Assembly: GCA_017631725.1 (NCBI GenBank)
Contig: JAGBSS010000046.1
Span: 1-10,384 of the forward strand
DNA length: 10,384 nt
Direction of reading: 5' to 3'
DNA from: Clostridia bacterium
Lineage (GTDB): Bacteria > Bacillota > Clostridia > Christensenellales > Borkfalkiaceae
The translations under genes and the position numbers were made by a program. The first letter of the stretch is position 1, and every line of letters begins with the position of its first letter. Under the pieces are notes generated by a model. The model saw only the letters and a program-made list of their open reading frames with translations. It was not told the origin of the DNA and made no database searches. This document shows positions 1-1,213 of this stretch, in pieces.

Positions 1-1213
1 CTTCTAAAACGTCCCAAACTTCGGGAGCAGCGCGTTCAACTTTACGTTTTGCGTTCTAAATATTGAGCGACATATTGTTTTCTACAAGTTTCTTCATTAC
101 GAAGGGCTAGAAGAGTTCGATAGCCATTTCTTTAGGTAAACCACATTGATATAGTTTAAGTTCAGGACCAACTACGATAACTGAACGGCCAGAATAGTCA
201 ACACGTTTACCAAGTAGGTTTTGACGGAAACGACCTTGTTTACCACGTAGCATACCAGATAGAGATTTAAGTTCACGGTTGCCTGCGCCACTAATTTCTT
301 TACCACGTCTACCATTATCGATAAGAGCGTCTACTGCTTCTTGAAGCATTCTCTTTTCGTTTCTAATAATGATTTCAGGAGCACCTAATTCCATTAACTT
401 TTTAAGTCTGTTATTTCTGTTAATAACACGTCTGTAAAGGTCGTTTAAGTCAGAAGTAGCAAATCTACCACCGTCTAATTGAACCATAGGACGAAGTTCT
501 GGTGGAATAACAGGAAGAACGTCTAAAATCATCCATTCTGGGCGATTTCCACTCTTTCTAAAAGATTCAATAATTTCAATACGTTTTACCGCACGAATTC
601 TCTTTTGACCAGAAGTGTTTTCTTCTATTATTTTTTTGGTTTCTGCACTTTCCTTTTCAAGGTCTATAGCCATTAAAAGTTCTTTAATAGCTTCTGCACC
701 CATACCCGTTCTGAAAGAGCCAACGCCGTATTCCGTTTCGAATTCGATTTTTTCTCTTTCATTAATAACTTGTTTGTATAAAAGTGGAGTTTCGCCTGGG
801 TCTAAAACAACGTGACAAGCAAAGTATAAAACTTGTTCTAACGCTTTAGGACTCATATCAAGCATAAGACCTATTCTTGATGGAACACCTTTAAAATACC
901 AAATGTGAGAAACAGGAGCAGCAAGTTCGATATGACCCATTCTGTCACGACGAACTTTGCTTTTTGTCACTTCTACGCCACACTTGTCGCAAACTACACC
1001 CTTATAACGGATACGTTTATATTTACCACAATGACATTCCCAGTCTTTGGTTGGTCCAAAAATTCTTTCGCAGAAAAGACCGCCCATTTCTGGTTTTTGA
1101 GTTCTGTAGTTAATAGTTTCTGGTTTGGTTACTTCGCCGTAAGACCAAGACCTAATTTTTTCGGGAGATGCAACTCCTATTTGTATAGAGTCAAAATTGT
1201 TAAGTTCAAACAT
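1..1213 (-). CDS. rpoC: DNA-directed RNA polymerase subunit beta' (N-terminal part; frame broken by two TAG codons)
   Basis: This is the largest RNA polymerase subunit, which forms one jaw of the clamp and carries the catalytic Mg site. The N-terminus MFELNNFDSIQIG and the zinc ribbon with Cys60, Cys62, Cys75 and Cys78 are typical of Bacillota. The later blocks GKQGRFRQNLLGKRVDYSGR and GLPKEMAIELF are also nearly canonical. The ATG at 1213 follows a GGGAGG ribosome site, 14 nt after the rpoB stop, so the two genes are co-transcribed. Codon 369 (107-109) is TAG where the family has Lys in ELFKPF, and codon 386 (56-58) is TAG where it has Lys in NIK-x-AKR. Recognisable RpoC sequence (PFVMKKLVE, then NAKRKVERAAPEVWDVLE) continues in the same frame to the edge. 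The NADFDGD active site would lie upstream of position 1, so a product ending at codon 368 would be inactive. The identity is certain; whether the gene is intact is not. Confidence 0.95.
56..109 (-). other. Two in-frame amber (TAG) codons inside conserved rpoC sequence
   Basis: Reading rpoC from 1213, TAG occurs at 109-107 and again at 58-56, 17 codons apart. E. coli RpoC has lysines at the matching positions with the same 17-residue spacing (the Lys of ELFKPF and the Lys of TIKAAKK), so the frame is collinear and no frameshift is involved. Both fit a single AAG-to-TAG change. rpmF in this window ends in TAG just before a hairpin, which suggests that TAG is normally a stop here. The possible causes are assembly or read errors near a contig edge, a disrupted copy, or suppression of amber. 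Confidence 0.9.

Follow-up and report, generated by a model that had tools for sequence, protein, structure and literature searches.

Background

TAG codons within open reading frames are a feature of pyrrolysine decoding. They are common to that system, to TAG-recoding phages and to the rpoC gene described here, which differs from both in that a CUA-anticodon tRNA did not turn up among those found, 12 of 67 sampled gene ends are TAG, and the gene is a chromosomal rpoC lying beside rpoB.

Where it treats stop codons, the alternative-code screen of Shulgina and Eddy (2021; PMC8629427) describes the then-known bacterial stop-codon changes as concerning UGA, and it traces false stop inferences to contamination and pseudogenes. 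The stops reported here resemble the false stops treated in that part of the paper (PMC8629427) in standing in frame at conserved columns, in being confined to a limited part of an assembly, and in coming without a suppressor tRNA. They differ from the contamination and pseudogenes discussed there in that we infer an error at a contig end, with flanking sequence that belongs to the genus.

Genomic setting of the rpoC fragment

The window (the whole stretch of DNA analysed, 10,384 bp) is an entire contig, C47, of the draft genome G000, which comprises 1,092,519 bases in 254 contigs and is 79.65% complete. The features on which the argument turns are as follows.

Window 1..1213, minus strand: 5' part of rpoC, 404 codons, with PF04997 and PF00623 matches; the contig end cuts the gene at window base 1.
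Window 107..109, minus strand: rpoC codon 369, TAG; Lys in 31 of 31 rows read from relatives (30 genomes).
Window 65..67, minus strand: rpoC codon 383, CTC (Leu); invariantly His (CAC or CAT) across the genus sequences compared.
Window 56..58, minus strand: rpoC codon 386, TAG; Lys in 31 of 31 rows read from relatives (30 genomes).
Window 7163..7165, minus strand: TAG stop codon of rpmF (ribosomal protein L32; Pfam L32p, PF01783).

Both rpoC stops read CTA on the plus strand. As the preliminary description had stated, they are spaced 17 codons apart and are followed in frame by conserved RpoC sequence, which runs on up to the contig end: positions 1-58 of PF00623 match C47:38-211, a match that contains the two TAG codons. 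The 1329-codon open frame of rpoB and the TAG stop of rpmF, also described there, are both as reported. Codons 369 and 386 lie 109 and 58 bases, respectively, from the end of the contig, and because the window is the complete contig, both stops sit at its edge.

The remainder (3' part) of rpoC is absent from the assembly, in which PF04998 has no match and both PF04997 and PF00623 match C47 only. Contigs of three relatives also start or end inside rpoC (G009:C120, G014:C47, G016:C220), which makes this gene a repeated break point. A second rpoC copy, which the preliminary description had named as something to look for, was not found by profile and DNA searches of the G000 assembly (~80% complete); a DNA search of G000 with window positions 1-220 returned the query itself and one 22-base match (E = 0.2).

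Two observations are recorded here in their own right. One relative, G007, has two long rpoC frames, of 1205 and 1208 aa, on contigs C15 (L051) and C17 (L027), and these may represent two species in one bin. Elsewhere in the window (5811-6932, plus strand), IspD and IspF are fused into one protein of 373 aa, flanked by an S4-domain protein and by a gene-poor stretch before rpmF.

Comparison with relatives

The genus sample comprised 44 genomes, 34 of which, G000 included, match the last 420 bases of the contig end. Among the 33 others with a match, G826 and G831 were left unread; codons were read in 32 rows, of which 31 (30 genomes) span both sites and one, that of G009, stops short of both. 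All 31 covering rows have AAA or AAG at codon 369 and at codon 386. At the level of the order, the rpoC tail has a match in 367 of 396 genomes, again counting G000, and among the matches listed every row but the window's own is free of internal stops in the tail. Recurrence of TAG at codon 369 was considered and dropped: a degenerate pattern for it, run against 398 genomes of the phylum, gave a single match, G000 itself, and viral matches showed no relation to RpoC by tblastn. The latter came from IMG/VR, where a shorter version of the pattern matches 15 viral contigs (L267-L281); with the RpoC protein P0122 as query and E up to 1 allowed, tblastn found none of the 15 to be RpoC-related. A similar phage segment is shared by 13 of them, its frame unrelated and interrupted by further stops.

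Five RpoC proteins, P0122-P0126, of which four have 1203 aa and one has 1155 aa, match the window's last 44 residues directly at 41 of 44 positions, the exceptions being codons 369, 383 and 386. With TAG taken as Lys, identity over codons 361-404 rises to 43 of 44, and only codon 383 still differs, with Leu in the window against His in these proteins. All three codons show one substitution type: where the relatives have A on the coding strand, the window has T.

An alignment of 45 DNA loci from the genus (in which some genomes recur) and 18 proteins contains 287 invariant columns; columns represented by fewer than 20 sequences did not enter the count, and one of 19 proteins, P0139, was dropped at below 85% identity. 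The window breaks 3 of the 29 invariant columns in codons 361-404 (TAG 369, TAG 386 and H383L) and 2 of the 258 in codons 1-360 (the conservative changes D152E and K168R), so that deviations cluster at the contig edge (Fisher p = 0.008, for a boundary at codon 360 that was picked post hoc). In a leave-one-out control with 39 loci, 38 break none of the tail columns and one, L305, breaks 3 of 29 by missense changes; over codons 1-360 the worst locus, L303, breaks 13 of 269.

Probable base errors at the contig end

Judged from these sequence comparisons, the two TAG codons are very probably no real feature of the gene but base errors within the final ~110 bases of a draft contig. Four lines lead to this reading: the position at the contig edge, the Lys in all relatives read, the third deviation of the same substitution type that is not a stop, and the use of TAG as an ordinary stop in this genome. 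Any new meaning of TAG would leave H383L unexplained, whereas base error covers all three differences. C47 runs out inside rpoC, a gene in which several relatives' contigs are broken as well. Few or mixed reads probably underlie its last bases; this is our inference, as is the way in which the errors would have arisen. The preliminary description had listed assembly error, a pseudogene copy or chimera, and amber suppression without ranking them; the first of these, in the form of a contig-edge error, is now favoured.

Some results count against the error reading. Mismatches amount to 235 of 653 positions at 17 contig ends, window included, and to 1657 of 5199 in the rest of the same alignments, with 9 of 41 and 15 of 363, respectively, contributed by the window itself. 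General corruption of G000 contig ends was accordingly dropped as an explanation, the 17 ends giving no clear general effect, and no gene-body stop was found at the others of these ends in alignments judged by eye. The probability that three random A-to-T changes in the tail would produce at least two stops is 0.055. The post hoc choice of the codon 360 boundary and locus L305, with its missense changes in as many tail columns, count on the same side.

Alternative explanations

It is unlikely, in our estimate, that the contig end is chimeric, such that the last ~40 rpoC codons would derive from a different species or strain within the genus and have been joined on at conserved rpoC sequence, with the errors stemming from poor reads. 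The tail is unusual in its synonymous codon use, and this gives a sister-strain join some footing: codons 364-404 are atypical for C47, with only 0.2% of 2609 overlapping segments of the same length scoring as low (1.2% when codon 383 is left out), although codons 381-404 alone are less atypical (4.7%). P0122-P0126 match the tail at 43 of 44 residues and codons 1-360 at just 341-344 of 360 (293 of 312 for the partial P0124). Against this, the tail type KVERxAPEV also occurs in further sister lineages, P0127-P0138, with bodies just as close (343-345 of 360), so that the rpoC tail can be native. A join by itself gives no account of two stops. An origin of the tail outside the genus was suggested at first by codons 381-400, with 0.43 missense differences per codon compared with 0.11-0.12 in three control relatives, and by a top match of 84% among the best 120 of 1480 listed proteins about 220-710 aa long. 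We dropped it once a search that took in full-length RpoC gave the five proteins with 43 of 44 tail residues, TAG counted as Lys.

A separate pair of G000 loci is recorded alongside. The tRNA clusters on C23 (6932-7444) and C87 (79-529) are alike (Lys-Gln-His-Arg-Gly, one with an extra Lys), which may reflect a duplication or mixed strains in the bin.

We regard as more improbable still a real broken copy, either a decaying rpoC paralogue or a dead allele carried by part of the population. Two stops and one missense change have hit invariant sites, and a TAA interrupts the frame of another conserved G000 gene, spoIVA, in the middle of contig C1. Yet no second rpoC was found in the ~80% complete assembly, 256 of 258 invariant columns are kept in codons 1-360, unlike a decaying gene, and an intact rpoB adjoins the fragment. 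rpoC, moreover, is an essential gene. The spoIVA stop itself lies at L084 (G000:C1) 1607-1609 on the plus strand, in the middle of both gene and contig, where same-genus genome G015 has Glu; the Pfam ATPase domain precedes it and the SpoIVA middle and C-terminal domains follow it. The stop may reflect a genuine loss of sporulation or be one more base error, and in either case it is not TAG.

That the cell inserts Lys or another residue at both rpoC TAG codons, by suppression or reassignment, is very unlikely. Such a reading would fit two stops that are both TAG, both at invariant lysines and both followed by conserved sequence. The use of TAG elsewhere in G000 speaks against it. We aligned 61 of the 254 G000 contigs, 271,732 bases with the window among them, to 693,296 bases of G015, dropping alignments below 40% identity or 60 bits (88 of 114 kept) and setting aside by eye any stop that preceded a start, lay at a C-terminal end or fell within a tRNA cluster or a non-coding frame. 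The frequency of TAG as a terminal codon, a further point that the preliminary description had proposed to look at, could be read from 67 gene ends on these 61 contigs: 53 are TAA, 12 TAG and 2 TGA, with none of the avoidance of TAG that would be expected of genome-wide reassignment. At the positions where G015 has Lys (88 alignments, 25,802 residues), G000 has 1158 AAA and 332 AAG codons, 1490 together, against 3 TAG and 883 other codons. Of the three TAG codons, the pair in rpoC makes up two and the third stands at the C-terminal end of its gene beside a TGA; beyond the two in rpoC, no gene-body TAG was found in these 25,802 aligned residues, and the recurrence that reassignment would entail is absent from the sample. 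The argument against genome-wide reassignment, which the preliminary description had built on the rpmF stop and on rpoB, thus stands on these wider counts.

A suppressor tRNA with a CUA anticodon, likewise raised in the preliminary description, is missing from the 22 tRNAs found in G000 (~80% complete; RF00005 could also miss an unusual tRNA), nor does one occur among the G015 tRNAs read (23 of 30 loci, in a partial genome). Release factor RF1 was not found in the G000 assembly, which would favour a changed meaning of TAG; it is present, though, in all three other genomes of the genus that were searched. The sole prfA-type match in G000 falls below the cut-off, scores like the second matches of G003 and G015 and has one TGA inside, and for these reasons looks like RF2. 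The RF1 region of G015 has no DNA match in G000 beyond this RF2-like gene, so that incompleteness of the assembly is the simplest reason for the missing RF1, though not proof of it. Finally, no meaning of TAG accounts for the Leu at codon 383.

The slimmest chance of all attaches to two real ambers at invariant rpoC lysines, read through by a suppressor tRNA missing from the assembly, on which the supply of RNA polymerase would depend; an essential enzyme that relied on reading through two stop codons would, if true, be remarkable.

Conclusions

Base errors at the end of a draft contig remain the favoured explanation of the two rpoC stops. In-frame stops within ~100 bases of the end of a draft contig are no ground for claiming recoding unless the reads have been checked, and such contig ends can burden databases with proteins that are truncated in error. 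In the living cell, a single ordinary rpoC most likely carries Lys codons at both sites.
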